Positions 6,315 through 53,029 of a stretch of 57,000 nt of DNA are shown here, piece by piece. The notes under the pieces are model-generated. The model ran no database searches. It saw only the letters and a program-made list of their open reading frames with translations, and was not told the origin of the DNA. Where the stretch lies: positions 1-57,000 of the IMG/VR virus record IMGVR_UViG_3300027792_000021; one strand, written 5' to 3'. The translations under genes and the position numbers were made by a program. The stretch is from a virus. Position 1 is the stretch's first letter, and each line of letters starts with the position of its first letter.

Positions 6315-6353
6315 AAAAACGTGGGAGCAGGGAGGAGGGTTTCCTGCCCCCAC
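6315..6353 (-). terminator. Rho-independent terminator inside the fibre operon
   Basis: On the minus strand, GTGGG+GCAGG pairs with CCTGC+CCCAC (arms 6343-6353 and 6321-6331, one unpaired base each side) and is followed by a run of five T at 6319-6315. It falls in a 100-bp gap between 6394 and 6293. Confidence 0.75.
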
Positions 6354-35394: not shown

Positions 35395-35423
35395 TTGACA
35401 AAGTAAATAGATATTGGTATAAA
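35395..35423 (+). promoter_or_regulatory. Early rightward promoter
   Basis: TTGACA (35395-35400), 17-bp spacer, TATAAA (35418-35423). Drives the small-gene operon 35.6-37.8 kb after a leader of about 180 nt. Confidence 0.8.
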
Positions 35424-35608
35424 GGAATCAACAACACAATGAGCTGGGTAAGGCCAGACCAACCACGCAATCGCCTCTGTGACTGACAAAGAATATCAGG
35501 GGAAACAAGGGATGAGCACACAGACTGGAAAGGATTAATTATTAGCACGAAAGCTCATCCTATATATAGAGCTTTGGTTTTAACAATTAATCAAGGGAGA
35601 AATAAAAA
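35424..35608 (+). ncRNA. 5' leader with two exclusive foldings
   Basis: Within 35510-35592, GGATGAGC (35510-35517) can pair with GCTCATCC (35553-35560), 8 perfect bp. Alternatively AAAGCTC (35550-35556) pairs with GAGCTTT (35569-35575), enclosed by GATTAAT/ATTAATC (35533-35539 with 35586-35592), and is followed by a TTTT. The first and second stems share the bases 35553-35556, so they cannot form together: the logic of an attenuator or riboswitch. No known class recognised. Confidence 0.5.
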
Positions 35609-35776
35609 ATGACTACTAAAACAAGACAAGAAATTATGGAAAGTCCGTCAGTCCATTTTTTAACAAAAGACGTACTTAAATTAACCGAACATAAAGACAT
35701 AGTAGACCGTTACTATGATGTTCGCTTGGCCTTAGAAATCCTTAAGGCCGAGATGGATGGAAAATTAGGGCTTTAA
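35609..35776 (+). CDS. Small early protein
   Basis: 55 aa, helical and charged (HKDIVDRYYDVRLALEILKAEMDGK). GGGAGA lies 8 bases before the ATG. First gene of the rightward operon; no family recognised. Confidence 0.6.
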   Translation: MTTKTRQEIMESPSVHFLTKDVLKLTEHKDIVDRYYDVRLALEILKAEMDGKLGL

Positions 35777-35790
35777 TAAACTATCAAACA

Positions 35791-35808
35791 GTCCTGGGAA
35801 ACCAGGGC
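35791..35808 (+). other. GAAA-tetraloop hairpin before start codon
   Basis: 7-bp stem GTCCTGG/CCAGGGC (one G-U pair) capped by GAAA, followed at once by the AAGGGGGG ribosome site of the TTG-start gene at 35821. Near copy at 36028-36045 shows a compensatory pair change. Confidence 0.7.
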
Positions 35809-35820
35809 AAGGGGGGAAAA

Positions 35821-36021
35821 TTGAAAGTAGAATTGTGGGTTAACGAAAAAAATGAGCAGATAGCATACCAATTACTTGCATCTGCAATTAGTAAGAAAAA
35901 TAAAAAGAAGATTCGCCCGTATTTTGAACTATATACGGAAGACGGCGATATAATGCGGGTTGAAGACCATGATCTGCAAAATGACCTTTGGCACGATATT
36001 GCAAGCCAAGAATACGATTAA
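35821..36021 (+). CDS. Small early protein (TTG start)
   Basis: 66 aa. Start is TTG with GGGGGG 4-5 bases upstream. Basic centre (SAISKKNKKKIRPYF) flanked by acidic ends. Unknown function. Confidence 0.6.
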   Translation: MKVELWVNEKNEQIAYQLLASAISKKNKKKIRPYFELYTEDGDIMRVEDHDLQNDLWHDIASQEYD

Positions 36022-36027
36022 CAACAA

Positions 36028-36045
36028 GCCCTGAGAAATCAGGGC
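36028..36045 (+). other. GAAA-tetraloop hairpin before start codon
   Basis: 7-bp perfect stem GCCCTGA/TCAGGGC capped by GAAA and followed by AAGGGGG. Compared with 35791-35808, the loop-closing pair changes from G-C to A-U and the second pair from U-G to C-G, so pairing is kept while sequence differs. Confidence 0.75.
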
Positions 36046-36056
36046 AAGGGGGAAAT

Positions 36057-36302
36057 ATGGCTAAAATAACAGTGTATTCACGAGGACTTGGAAGAGCAAT
36101 CACGCTGAAAGAAGGCATCACGATGGAGCGGTGCCTGCAAAGCATCCCCGATGCAGTTAAGGTAAAAAAGCCGTCCACTGCTACGATGGAAAAGTGGTGC
36201 GACGAAGGCGGGTGTAAAGCCATTGATGGATGCTGGGTAGAACCGGACGGAACTTGTAAACATGGATACCCTTCATGGCTATCTGCCCTTGGATATATTT
36301 AA
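36057..36302 (+). CDS. Small conserved phage protein with Cys and PSWL tail
   Basis: 81 aa from the ATG at 36057 (AAGGGGG upstream; the frame is open to 35988 but without a site). C-terminal CKAIDGCWVEPDGTCKHGYP plus PSWLSALGYI matches a widespread short phage protein of unknown function; four Cys and one His could hold zinc. Confidence 0.65.
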   Translation: MAKITVYSRGLGRAITLKEGITMERCLQSIPDAVKVKKPSTATMEKWCDEGGCKAIDGCWVEPDGTCKHGYPSWLSALGYI

Positions 36303-36315
36303 TCTGTTTCAGTCT

Positions 36316-36341
36316 CAGTTCAGGGCTCTGGTCCTGGACTG
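36316..36341 (+). other. Intercistronic hairpin
   Basis: 9-bp stem CAGTTCAGG/CCTGGACTG with one G-U pair and an 8-base loop, in the 81-bp gap before the next gene. Confidence 0.6.
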
Positions 36342-36383
36342 GAGCGGAGATAGAATACACTAAAGGAAAAGGAGAAATAAGTA

Positions 36384-36581
36384 ATGAACCTTACAACGCT
36401 CAAAAACAAGGTAAGAACCGGAAAGGTGCGACAACTGCATACTGCCTTGGCAAATGAATACGTCTCACGCAAGGCAGGACCATACGTCCGGGAATATCAA
36501 GGACGTTACGGCAAGGGCTTTGCGCTACTATCGCCTAATCGACACAGTAATAATTTTAGTTTTATAACTTATTTCATATAG
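36384..36581 (+). CDS. Small basic phage protein
   Basis: 65 aa, basic. RKAGPYVREYQGRYGKGFALLSPNRHSNNF resembles a short conserved phage sequence of unknown function. AGGAG lies 8 bases before the ATG. Confidence 0.6.
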   Translation: MNLTTLKNKVRTGKVRQLHTALANEYVSRKAGPYVREYQGRYGKGFALLSPNRHSNNFSFITYFI

Positions 36582-36583
36582 TG

Positions 36584-36608
36584 AGTCGGTTACAAAATGT
36601 AACCGATT
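36584..36608 (+). other. Intercistronic hairpin
   Basis: Stem of 10-11 bp around TCGGTTAC/GTAACCGA with an A-rich loop, ending 6 bases before the GGAGA site of the 36626 gene. Confidence 0.65.
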
Positions 36609-36625
36609 GAAAAGGAGAAAAAGAG

Positions 36626-36898
36626 ATGAAAAACCTTAGAGACATTAAAGATCGATTTCACACTGAACTCAAGCAATGGTTCAAAAAACAAACCGAAAAC
36701 ATTTACGAAAATTATTACCTGTATTACTTGCCGGCAACATCCCAACATGATGGTGGCATAATCATTGCCAAGGATAAACCGGCCAATCCCGAATACCAAT
36801 TAGCAACAGGGCAATCAATCCGCAAAGATTGTACGATAGAGCAAAACATGATTGTGTTTAGCGATATTTTAAACAGATTGCCAGTATTATCAGACTAA
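36626..36898 (+). CDS. Small early protein
   Basis: 90 aa, helical and charged at both ends, Tyr-rich centre (YENYYLYYLP). AAGGAG upstream of the ATG. No family recognised. Confidence 0.6.
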   Translation: MKNLRDIKDRFHTELKQWFKKQTENIYENYYLYYLPATSQHDGGIIIAKDKPANPEYQLATGQSIRKDCTIEQNMIVFSDILNRLPVLSD

Positions 36899-36942
36899 TT
36901 CCAACGCCCTGAGCATGGCACTAAAAGGCTCGGAGGATAACT

Positions 36943-37125
36943 ATGGGAAAAATTAAATATACAATCTGGGGAATCCCCTGGAAAGGGGAAAAAGAAGAGT
37001 TGTTTTGTGATAAAACGTGGTGGGGTGAAGACATCACAAATTTAACACAGGCCAAATCGTTAATGATTTATTATACAATTACCAGAGGAAGCACTAAGGT
37101 CAGAATAAAGGAGGAGCCATGTTAA
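36943..37125 (+). CDS. Small early protein
   Basis: 60 aa, Trp-rich (IWGIPWKGEKEE, KTWWGED). GGAGG before the ATG; a weaker 6-bp hairpin (36909-36933) precedes it, starting with the GCCCTGAG seen at other pre-start hairpins. Overlaps the HTH gene by 7 bp. Confidence 0.55.
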   Translation: MGKIKYTIWGIPWKGEKEELFCDKTWWGEDITNLTQAKSLMIYYTITRGSTKVRIKEEPC

Positions 37126-37460
37126 AAGCTGTTGACCAAGCCAGAAGCTTGAGAAACTTGCAATCAAGGGCAAGGGTACGCAACAAGGAGCTTGCCAAGT
37201 TAACCGGCCTTGCTGAATCGACTATATTTGCTTATCGATCAGGCCGTCTCAAAGTCCCTGACCATGTTCTGGACCTGCTGAGCGAGAGGGCAAGACGATA
37301 CAAAAAACCCTATACTGAGCAACAAGGAAATATATATCTTGTTGCACAAATCCAAGCCTATATCCATGACCTTGTATCATGGGCAGGGCCGGAGTACGTC
37401 ACTGAGGAAATATTGCCTGAAATAGACCAAATCAGGCGATATGCGAACAGGAGGATATGA
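37119..37460 (+). CDS. HTH transcription regulator
   Basis: 113 aa. Helix-turn-helix at about 22-55: NKELAKLTGLAESTIFAYRSGRLKVPDHVLDLL, a Cro/CI-type layout. C-terminal helical part for oligomerisation. A candidate regulator of the divergent terS/early promoters 1.7 kb upstream. GGAGG before the ATG. Confidence 0.65.
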   Translation: MLKAVDQARSLRNLQSRARVRNKELAKLTGLAESTIFAYRSGRLKVPDHVLDLLSERARRYKKPYTEQQGNIYLVAQIQAYIHDLVSWAGPEYVTEEILPEIDQIRRYANRRI

Positions 37461-37464
37461 TACT

Positions 37465-37635
37465 ATGAACACCAGAACTTGTGCGGTATGCGGAAAAATC
37501 AAACCAATTAATCAATTTGGCAATGGCATAAAAAGCTCTAAGAATACCTGTCTTGAGTGTGTAAAAAAAGCACACAACAGGGATAAGCCGCCTAAAGTTG
37601 ATCCAATTATGGAATATCTAAAGGAGTTAAACTAA
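37465..37635 (+). CDS. Small zinc-finger protein
   Basis: 56 aa from the ATG at 37465; TCAVCGKIKPINQFGNG and CLECVKK give one four-Cys site. The pattern (CxxC-KxKPxxxF ... CxxC) recalls the zinc-binding start of phage HNH-type proteins, but no nuclease core follows. GGAGG about 10 bases upstream. Confidence 0.6.
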   Translation: MNTRTCAVCGKIKPINQFGNGIKSSKNTCLECVKKAHNRDKPPKVDPIMEYLKELN

Positions 37636-37636
37636 T

Positions 37637-37813
37637 ATGATAAGTCTATTTCGTATATGTGGAATTTTATTAGGCTTTTCCTTTATGACACTGGCCCTAT
37701 TCTGGGGTCAGGACTTTGATGCTAATAGTGGATTACTCATGGCTGGAGGTGCCATGATCGTGGCAGGGAGCCTGATAAAGATAATCGAAAAAGTTGACAA
37801 TGAAGAAAATTAA
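37637..37813 (+). CDS. Small two-helix membrane protein
   Basis: 58 aa: hydrophobic segments at about 3-23 and 31-49, charged tail. AAGGAG 10 bases before the ATG. Last gene of the rightward early operon; a promoter for a downstream small RNA lies inside its 3' end. Confidence 0.6.
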   Translation: MISLFRICGILLGFSFMTLALFWGQDFDANSGLLMAGGAMIVAGSLIKIIEKVDNEEN

Positions 37814-37828: not shown

Positions 37829-37970
37829 ATATATACGGGGACTGTGACATCGTACAGGGTTGGTACTGATCGCGACAGTTTACGATGTTTACCGGAAAAT
37901 CCAACTTTATCCCGTTTATAGCATAGGCGGATGACCCCTTGTTTGCTGATACAAATGAGGGGTCTATTAT
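37829..37970 (+). ncRNA. Candidate structured small RNA
   Basis: Between promoter and terminator, with no ORF. Stems: ACGGG/CCCGT (37835-37839 with 37911-37915), ACATCGTA/TACGATGT (37847-37854 with 37881-37888, perfect 8 bp), and a possible pseudoknot GTTGG/CCAAC (37859-37863 with 37901-37905). The 3' end is the terminator hairpin. No known family recognised; may regulate neighbouring operons or be the operon's processed 3' end. Confidence 0.55.
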
Positions 37971-37973
37971 TTT
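37933..37973 (+). terminator. Rho-independent terminator
   Basis: GACCCCT (37933-37939) pairs with AGGGGTC (37958-37964), followed by TATTATTTT. Ends the rightward early operon against the convergent gene at 37972. Confidence 0.75.
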
Positions 37974-38175
37974 AGTTACTTGCCATTCCATCCATCGGAC
38001 GCCCTTTGCTCTCCCATAATTTTACAGCATTTTCAAGTGCTTCATGTGGTGTTTTTGCATCTGCCCAAAAATTACCACAAGCGTTTACATGTGCTCGCCA
38101 CATATCACCACGCATATAAATTGACGGATAACACCCATAAAATTTAAGCCATTTCATCCTTTTATTTAGTTCCAT
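37972..38175 (-). CDS. Small phage protein
   Basis: 67 aa from the ATG at 38175 (AAGGA about 10 bases upstream). WRAHVNACGNFWADAKTPHEALENAVKLWESKG is the pattern of small phage proteins that resemble HicB-like folds (one beta hairpin plus helix). Last gene of the leftward early block. Confidence 0.55.
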   Translation of the reverse strand: MELNKRMKWLKFYGCYPSIYMRGDMWRAHVNACGNFWADAKTPHEALENAVKLWESKGRPMDGMASN

Positions 38176-38195: not shown

Positions 38196-38224
38196 TTGAC
38201 AAGAAAGAAAATAGTATATAGACT
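38196..38224 (+). promoter_or_regulatory. Possible promoter for short RNA
   Basis: TTGACA (38196-38201), 17-bp spacer, TAGACT (38219-38224). The -10 is imperfect. It points towards a strong terminator 30-65 bp downstream. Confidence 0.5.
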
Positions 38225-38230
38225 ATATTT

Positions 38231-38290
38231 ACTTTCTTCTCCCTTTCCTCCTTAGCCCCTCGTGCTGTAAAGCAGGGGGGCTTTCTTTTT
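38231..38290 (+). ncRNA. Candidate 60-nt RNA carrying an anti-Shine-Dalgarno sequence
   Basis: Pyrimidine-rich 5' part (TTTCTTCTCCC) followed by CCTCCTTA at 38247-38254, the same octamer as the 16S rRNA 3' tail that pairs with ribosome binding sites, then a terminator hairpin. No ORF. Could pair with the phage's or host's AGGAGG sites. Existence depends on the moderate promoter upstream. Confidence 0.45.
38254..38290 (+). terminator. Rho-independent terminator
   Basis: AGCCCC (38254-38259) and TGCT (38263-38266) pair with AGCA (38271-38274) and GGGGCT (38277-38282) around a GTAA tetraloop, then TTTCTTTTT. There is no rightward protein gene between it and the previous terminator. Confidence 0.75.
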
Positions 38291-43443: not shown

Positions 43444-43453
43444 AAAGACACCT

Positions 43454-43537
43454 CAAAAAAACGCACCAGACCTGCTGATCTCAACTGGAAAGAGGAGAGA
43501 TTCCGATACCTCACGGTTAACCGGGATCTGGTGCGTT
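43454..43537 (-). terminator. Long-arm terminator/attenuator in replication leader
   Basis: AACGCACCAGA (minus 43537-43527) pairs perfectly with TCTGGTGCGTT (43470-43460), 11 bp, enclosing 56 nt with a smaller CGGTTAACCG palindrome; a run of seven T (43460-43454) follows on the minus strand. Between the promoter (43583-43611) and the first gene (43443), so it can attenuate the operon. Confidence 0.65.
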
Positions 43538-43582
43538 AAATTATAGGTTTATAGGAATTTCCAGTTTAATCAGCATAATAGA

Positions 43583-43611
43583 TTGATACTATCTTTGGCA
43601 GAATATGTCAA
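43583..43611 (-). promoter_or_regulatory. Replication-operon promoter
   Basis: Minus strand TTGACA (43611-43606), 17-bp spacer, TATCAA (43588-43583). Leader of about 130 nt holds the attenuator-like hairpin. Confidence 0.65.
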
Positions 43612-43624
43612 GTTATTTTATAGA

Positions 43625-51579: not shown

Positions 51580-51816
51580 TAAATTTGGGGAAATGCAAAA
51601 AACCTTGCAAGTTAAAGTTGTTAAACAACTAAAGCCAACAGATTGGAAAACTCGTTGTAAAATAAACTAGAGATAACGATACCTCATCCATCTAATTAGA
51701 GCCTGTGAAGCATTGAATCTGTAGTGGTGATACAGACCCCAATATACTTTTATTTAATTACATGATATTATAGCCCTGAGCCTGCCCAGGGTATAACTGG
51801 CAGGCAAGGAGGGAAA
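51580..51816 (+). other. 237-bp gap with pre-start hairpin
   Basis: Holds a possible 25-aa ORF (51593-51670, GGGGAA upstream) and, at 51773-51804, mutually exclusive stems GCCCTG/CAGGG and CCTGCC/GGCAGG just before AAGGAGGG of the next gene. The GCCCTGAG start of this hairpin is shared with those at 36028 and 36906. Nothing else recognisable. Confidence 0.45.
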
Positions 51817-52059
51817 TTGAAAATATTAATCTTGGTAAGTATAATTACATGGTCATTTGGTGGAGGGTATCAAGATAGACCATCTGCTAAAATTGTTTCA
51901 AGCATTGAGAATGCTGCTTTATCAGTTTTTGTAGATACGCAAAAAGATAGCATTCTTACTGAACCAGATCAGAAAAAGTACAAGTTATATGAACTTGATA
52001 TAACAACAAATAAAGTAACAGAGATAAAGATACCTGAATTGATTTTTAAGGTAGAATAA
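51817..52059 (+). CDS. Small exported or anchored protein (TTG start)
   Basis: 80 aa; hydrophobic N-terminus (MKILILVSIITWSFGGG), then a small beta-rich domain. TTG start with AAGGAGGG upstream, like 35821. Confidence 0.55.
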   Translation: MKILILVSIITWSFGGGYQDRPSAKIVSSIENAALSVFVDTQKDSILTEPDQKKYKLYELDITTNKVTEIKIPELIFKVE

Positions 52060-52257: not shown

Positions 52258-52413
52258 GTGCCTAACTATTCTACCGGAGCCACATTATTCGGTTTCTTTA
52301 TGATGATGTTTACAGTGCTATTTATACTGCCGATGGCTCTGGTAGTATATATCGTGGGAAATTTAGCAGAATGGATAATAAGGAGGCAAGATGATACAAA
52401 ATTTTATACATAG
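52258..52413 (+). CDS. Possible small membrane protein (GTG start)
   Basis: 51 aa; one Met/Phe/Val-rich transmembrane segment (about 11-33). GTG start lacks an obvious ribosome site; overlaps the sulfotransferase start by 23 bp. Confidence 0.4.
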   Translation: MPNYSTGATLFGFFMMMFTVLFILPMALVVYIVGNLAEWIIRRQDDTKFYT

Positions 52414-53029
52414 ACAGATCCAGAAATATGCCGCCAGTAAGAAGGGTAAAAAATATCATCTGTCTTTTGACTACTGGCATAAACTTATCTGGTTTAGAAT
52501 AGCCAAGTGCGCTACAAGATCAATAGATGAAGTGCTACATATCTATCCTGAATATGAATATCGGCCACGGGGAAATTACTTCCCTTGGTTGTACCGATAT
52601 TATTTCAAGTTCACATTCATTAGAAATCCTATAGATCGTCTTAAATCCTGTTATCTTGATAAGGTAGTAGCTGAAGTTCCTTTTCAATCAAGATACCATA
52701 CATTTTACAGGGAACGATATTTCCCTAAAATGGATATAAATACCTTCATAGAATATGTATCAGTTAAAGACCTTAATTCCCCATACACTGATGAGCATAT
52801 TCGATCTCAAGTGTCTATGCTTAATCTGCCGGATATAGATTTTATTGGCAGAGTTGAGAACTTTGAAACTGACTTTAGAACAGTATTAAAAGTTGCCGGT
52901 ATTCCTGTAGCAAATATCCCTCACATAAACAAGAGTAAAGGTGAGTTAGAATTAACGTCTGTGCAGGAATCTAAGATTAAAAAGATGTACAGAAAAGACT
53001 ATGAACTATGGGAAGATGACAGAAGGTAA
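52391..53029 (+). CDS. Sulfotransferase (Sulfotransfer_2 type)
   Basis: 212 aa. FRIAKCATRSIDEVL (35-49) is the 5'-phosphosulfate loop of PAPS-dependent enzymes, FTFIRNPIDRLKSCY (74-88) the 3'-phosphate-binding motif, DFIGRVENFETDF and HINKS later complete the family layout. No transmembrane helix or signal, so cytoplasmic. Transfers sulfate from PAPS to a glycan or other acceptor; probably changes host surface sugar or a phage glycoconjugate. Rare in phages. AGGAGG before the ATG. Confidence 0.8.
   Translation: MIQNFIHRQIQKYAASKKGKKYHLSFDYWHKLIWFRIAKCATRSIDEVLHIYPEYEYRPRGNYFPWLYRYYFKFTFIRNPIDRLKSCYLDKVVAEVPFQSRYHTFYRERYFPKMDINTFIEYVSVKDLNSPYTDEHIRSQVSMLNLPDIDFIGRVENFETDFRTVLKVAGIPVANIPHINKSKGELELTSVQESKIKKMYRKDYELWEDDRR

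Follow-up and report, generated by a model that had tools for sequence, protein, structure and literature searches.

The phage small RNAs characterised so far are mostly those of model enterobacterial phages. In Alphaproteobacteria, small RNAs that silence mRNAs at the start region through an anti-Shine-Dalgarno (anti-SD) motif are established (PMC10746234, PMC12559287), and a review covers the small RNAs of phages, OOP and c4 among them (PMC12197685). Here we describe a predicted small-RNA unit at positions 38196-38290 of a 57-kb viral sequence, which was analysed over its whole length and is referred to as the window. Its kind is therefore known; by its anatomy the RNA appears to be a new member, with a pairing function that we infer from sequence.

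In the alpha-r14 family (NfeR1) and in SisA-D of Caulobacter, mRNAs are silenced at their start regions through an anti-SD motif that is unpaired and rich in C and U (PMC10746234, PMC12559287). The phage RNA has a motif of the same type and may silence in the same way. NfeR1 and the alpha-r14 RNAs form three hairpins, each with CCUCCUCCC (PMC10746234), whereas the phage RNA has one hairpin and one CCUCCUU and so falls outside that family. It also differs from NfeR1 in being phage-encoded and in lacking a sequence match at the Rfam level. Lambda OOP is likewise a short RNA of a phage that has a promoter and a terminator to itself and is transcribed opposite to its neighbour. OOP is antisense to cII (PMC12197685), while the gene opposed to the RNA described here is a different one in every relative. 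The c4 RNA of P1 and P7 blocks a ribosome-binding site by pairing (PMC12197685), as we propose for this RNA. No Rfam model, the comparison with P1/P7 c4 included, matches the small RNA at its gathering score. The suhB/mmgR model (RF00519) shares a CUCCCU-type tract followed by a terminator and UUUUUGUCCU, but its match is weak (21.1 bits, E 0.071, against a gathering score of 41 bits) and does not place the RNA in that family. Weak matches to PyrR, suhB and PrrB were all discarded as far below the cut-off.

Architecture of the small-RNA unit

The unit begins with a sigma-70-type promoter on the plus strand (38196-38224). Its -35 box TTGACA (38196-38201) and -10 box TAGACT (38219-38224) are separated by 17 nt, and it is the top-scoring promoter match within 36-41 kb. 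The predicted transcript of ~60 nt (38231-38290, plus strand), whose start is placed from the -10 box, contains no reading frame. Its 5' region ACUUUCUUCUCCCUUUCCUCCUUA (38231-38254) is pyrimidine-rich, remains unpaired in the predicted folds of the window version and of those from two related phages, L008 and L009, and is the presumed pairing region. It ends in the octamer CCTCCTTA (38247-38254), the complement of the Shine-Dalgarno (SD) sequence TAAGGAGG; CCUCCUUA is present and unpaired in the predicted fold. The intrinsic terminator T2 follows directly (38255-38290), identified by folding and by a terminator scan. It consists of a GC-rich hairpin with a GTAA loop (38255-38281) and the U-run TTTCTTTTT (38282-38290). 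The predicted fold of a 63-nt RNA has an energy of -20.8 kcal/mol (z = -3.3) and leaves the octamer unpaired; the L008 and L009 versions fold with -21.7 kcal/mol.

A uniform scan ranks T2 first among the rightward terminators of the 57 kb (-18.9 kcal/mol); a single leftward hairpin, at 6320, exceeds it. The probability that a promoter match of at least 10/12 begins 25-85 nt before a random point is p = 0.0056, so a good promoter this close to the best terminator is unlikely to arise by chance. The earlier note had given both elements at exactly these coordinates. It had also described a 60-nt pyrimidine-rich stretch containing the octamer; the octamer is where it was said to be, but only the first ~24 nt of the transcript are rich in pyrimidines.

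A promoter and an intrinsic terminator of its own, together with the lack of a reading frame, give the unit the make-up of a small-RNA gene, and the unpaired SD-complementary motif of the predicted folds gives the RNA that of an anti-SD RNA. We consider it very probable that 38196-38290 is a real small-RNA gene with the predicted transcript. A small peptide can be dismissed, as the plus strand has no frame and the minus-strand frame through the element is broken by a one-base indel in L008 and L009; no tRNA was found, nor evidence of an attachment site.

Conservation in related phages

Relatives were searched with the conserved early-operon protein encoded at 36057-36302. L008 (a 44.8 kb contig) and L009 (45.5 kb), the two nearest relatives known, belong to the same phage group, while L010-L013 are more distant. 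In a plain BLAST of 34-46 kb, the unit aligns with L008 over 102 bases at 99% identity and with L009 over 79 bases at 96%. The alignment of the three phages contains no substitution from ACTTTCTTCTCCC through the final T of the U-run. The L008 and L009 versions have one inserted A after CCTCCTTA, and L009 carries a T to C change between the -10 box and the RNA start. The promoter is identical at L008:12873; in L009 it reads TTAACA-17-TAGACT with a different spacer. The note's proposed check of the octamer in relatives did not refute its idea: octamer and terminator are both kept in L008 and L009, and neither has the terminator without the octamer. That promoter, octamer and terminator are conserved together lends good support to its proposal of a short RNA exposing an anti-SD stretch.

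The genomes are mosaic, with identical blocks elsewhere of up to 466 bases (window and L009) and 923 bases (L008 and L009). Recent exchange could therefore explain part of the small-RNA identity, which taken alone is no proof of selection. We argue for selection because of three further observations. Fourfold sites have diverged in nearby genes, with 79/119 identical (~66%) between the window and L008 in five nearby called genes and ~60-85% identity between L008 and L009 in the nearest ones. Identity breaks off close to the limits of the unit, with the end of the U-run as its downstream edge and the -35 (L008) or -10 box (L009) as its upstream one, and other intergenic DNA is largely unalignable. 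In L009 the promoter has been rebuilt: the -35 box TTAACA lies inside the final codons of the last rightward gene, the TAG stop of that gene is the first half of the -10 box, and the spacing is exactly 17 nt (p = 0.019 for a 5/6 match to the -35 box at 16-18 nt spacing). The near-absence of variation means that the octamer cannot be separated from the rest of the RNA and that base-pair covariation is uninformative.

Conservation of the RNA rests on three genomes. A scan of viral contigs with the 5' tract pattern TTCTCCCTTTCCTCCTTA matched only L008 and L009; the exact pattern CCTCCTTAGCCCCTCGTGCTGTAA gave no match, as the relatives carry one more A. The RNA is absent from L002-L005 and L010-L013, several of which are fragments that may not reach the site. 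No meaningful match was found in phages or plasmids, nor any match in 398 Pseudomonadota genomes, an uninformative negative as these may not include the host. The primase, a 67-aa gene and a helix-turn-helix gene likewise gave no further relatives among viral contigs. At the level of sequence, the promoter, the terminator, the absence of a frame and the conservation of the whole unit in three phages are established.

Genomic surroundings

The rightward early operon extends from 35609 to 37813 and has a promoter, TTGACA-17-TATAAA near 35395, that is conserved in all three phages. It ends 380 nt upstream of the small-RNA unit and has its own terminator, T1 (37933-37964, plus strand), which in L008 lies directly upstream of the small-RNA promoter, giving the order last rightward gene, T1, small RNA. 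In the window, a cassette absent from L008 and L009 (37965-38189, minus strand) separates T1 from the small-RNA promoter and carries a leftward gene of 67 aa (37972-38175). L009 has neither T1 nor another terminator there, and its small RNA directly follows the last rightward gene. The earlier claim that no rightward gene explains the terminator is right only in part: in L009 the unit abuts the last rightward gene.

This position suggests two ways in which the RNA itself might matter little or act only locally, each improbable to about the same degree. It could be a cis-antisense RNA like lambda OOP, pairing with the leftward mRNA from the same DNA and promoting its decay or blocking the gene. 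The RNA indeed lies opposite leftward transcription, its 3' end falls a few to ~30 nt from the leftward stop codon in all three phages, and any leftward read-through would be perfectly complementary to it. However, the adjoining leftward gene differs by phage (49 aa in the window, 80 aa in L008, 44 aa in L009), leaving no conserved opposite-strand gene as a target. Antisense pairing needs no fixed sequence either, and the invariance is thus unlikely to be due to a cis target; an invariant RNA beside changing leftward genes favours a role in trans. Alternatively, the unit could be a junction terminator with an interfering promoter that stops rightward read-through or blocks leftward polymerase, the RNA being a by-product. 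Its location at the end of the rightward operon, the strength of T2 and the lack of another terminator in L009 agree with this. It does not account for the invariance of the untranslated pyrimidine tract that separates the promoter from the hairpin, and T1 is already present directly upstream in L008 and the window.

Other features of the region were observed. The 5' leader of the early operon (35441-35593) is a candidate conserved structured RNA of three helices and 37 pairs, the last hairpin of which ends directly before the SD of the first early gene. Seven pairs show compensatory changes among the three phages, a number reached by 0/500 shuffles; 97% of cells are paired, and sliding the partners makes the pairing collapse. 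It has no Rfam match. We regard it as a separate covarying structured RNA, with antitermination or translation control as possible roles. Several early genes are preceded by a repeated leader hairpin of the GCCCTGA-loop-TCAGGGC type, after which come a G-rich SD and the start codon (35791-35825, 36028-36057 and 51773-51817 in the window; L008:9367, 9693 and 9971; L009:9971). The segment 37794-37970 comprises a promoter-like TTGACA-17-TATATA, situated at the 3' end of the gene 37637-37813, and then a non-coding stretch and T1. This segment, shorter in L008, has a fold z of -3.7 with T1 and -0.6 without it, and could be a second small RNA. Elsewhere, non-coding 43450-43619 is 90% identical to L008:18395-18564, including a 57-base identical run, and the gene 52391-53029 encodes a sulfotransferase domain (Pfam Sulfotransfer_2, E 3e-15), an unusual phage cargo.

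A dyad at the promoter

An imperfect dyad at 38198-38241, with 16-nt arms, 14/16 complementary, and a 12-nt gap, overlaps the promoter and is a possible operator. No other dyad of such quality occurs in the 57 kb at gaps of 6-20. It is unchanged in L008; L009 keeps the half-sites GA(C/G)AAGAAAG(A/T)A but has the gap reduced by 9 nt, an arrangement more in keeping with protein binding than with an RNA hairpin. The dyad core AAAGTAAATA is also found in the early promoter of all three phages. The gene at 37119-37460 codes for a small helix-turn-helix protein that shows 93-95% identity among the three phages and has no relatives in the phage collection. There are hints that the promoter is under a phage DNA-binding protein, possibly this one.

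Part of the conserved 5' end of the small RNA falls within the dyad, and the locus might accordingly be read as a DNA-level element, such as an operator, an origin or another protein-binding site, with an unimportant RNA. We find this quite unlikely. The uniqueness of the promoter dyad speaks for it, but conservation tracks the limits of the transcript, and neither the CCCTTTCCTCCTTA part nor the hairpin falls within the dyad. In addition, L009 alters the DNA of the spacer yet keeps the promoter boxes. An origin-like skew is absent; a replication origin was rejected because no skew switch occurs beyond gene direction.

Pairing with start regions

The octamer CCTCCTTA is not beyond chance in the window, as dinucleotide shuffles give 1.9 copies per window. 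Six of its seven copies are genuine TAAGGAGG SDs of genes on the opposite strand, and the small-RNA copy remains. Read on the minus strand, the TAAGGAGG of this site is too far from any start codon to be the SD of a leftward gene.

Candidate targets were sought among phage start regions only. The start regions of the 84 window genes pair well with the tract, but no better, in duplex energy or contiguous match, than with scrambles that keep the octamer. In the three genomes together, runs of at least 9 contiguous matches to the part preceding the octamer occur at six start sites; 2.45 are expected, and 39/300 scrambles reach six. Among phage targets the leading candidate is the first early gene's SD, AAGGGAGAA (35593-35611, plus strand), which is perfectly complementary over 9 nt to UUCUCCCUU of the small RNA. 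AAGGGAGAA also precedes two early genes in L009, and L008 has AAGGGAGGAGAA, with one extra G, before two early genes. The match between AAGGGAGAA and UUCUCCCUU is not significant against scrambled RNAs. Targets may also lie in the host.

These data bear on the global translation switch that the earlier note had envisaged, in which the RNA would mimic the 16S tail and mask most SDs together. The unpaired CCUCCUUA and the conservation of the octamer in three phages agree with such a role. The premise that most phage genes are led by AGGAGG does not hold, since the motif was found upstream of only 18/84 called genes. Octamer-kept scrambles pair equally well with the start regions, and eight base pairs are thin for a genome-wide effect. 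Nothing beyond the octamer speaks for the switch, which we consider very unlikely. Hardly more credible is a version in which the invariant RNA, resembling the 16S 3' end, competes for SDs at a set time in infection under a repressor bound to the dyad, silencing early phage and host messages together.

Proposed function

We favour a small RNA that pairs with SD regions in trans, at a probability of roughly 0.55. The locus would be an independent small-RNA gene of a tailed phage, placed at the convergent junction where the leftward replication genes meet the rightward early operon. The sigma-70-type promoter, probably regulated, would yield an RNA of ~60 nt, and the strong terminator hairpin would both end the RNA and stabilise its 3' end. 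The unpaired pyrimidine-rich 5' half would pair with purine-rich SD regions of selected phage or host mRNAs, and ribosome loading would be blocked there. Transcription, trans action by pairing and the choice of targets are all what we infer from this anatomy. The RNA is probably a regulator of translation, not a global off-switch.

The unit provides a small RNA defined by anatomy and conservation in uncultivated phages, with pairing predictions that are simple to test. It comes after an operon headed by a second, covarying structured RNA. If the small RNA acts on this early operon, the phage would lower its early translation through a simple RNA feedback.
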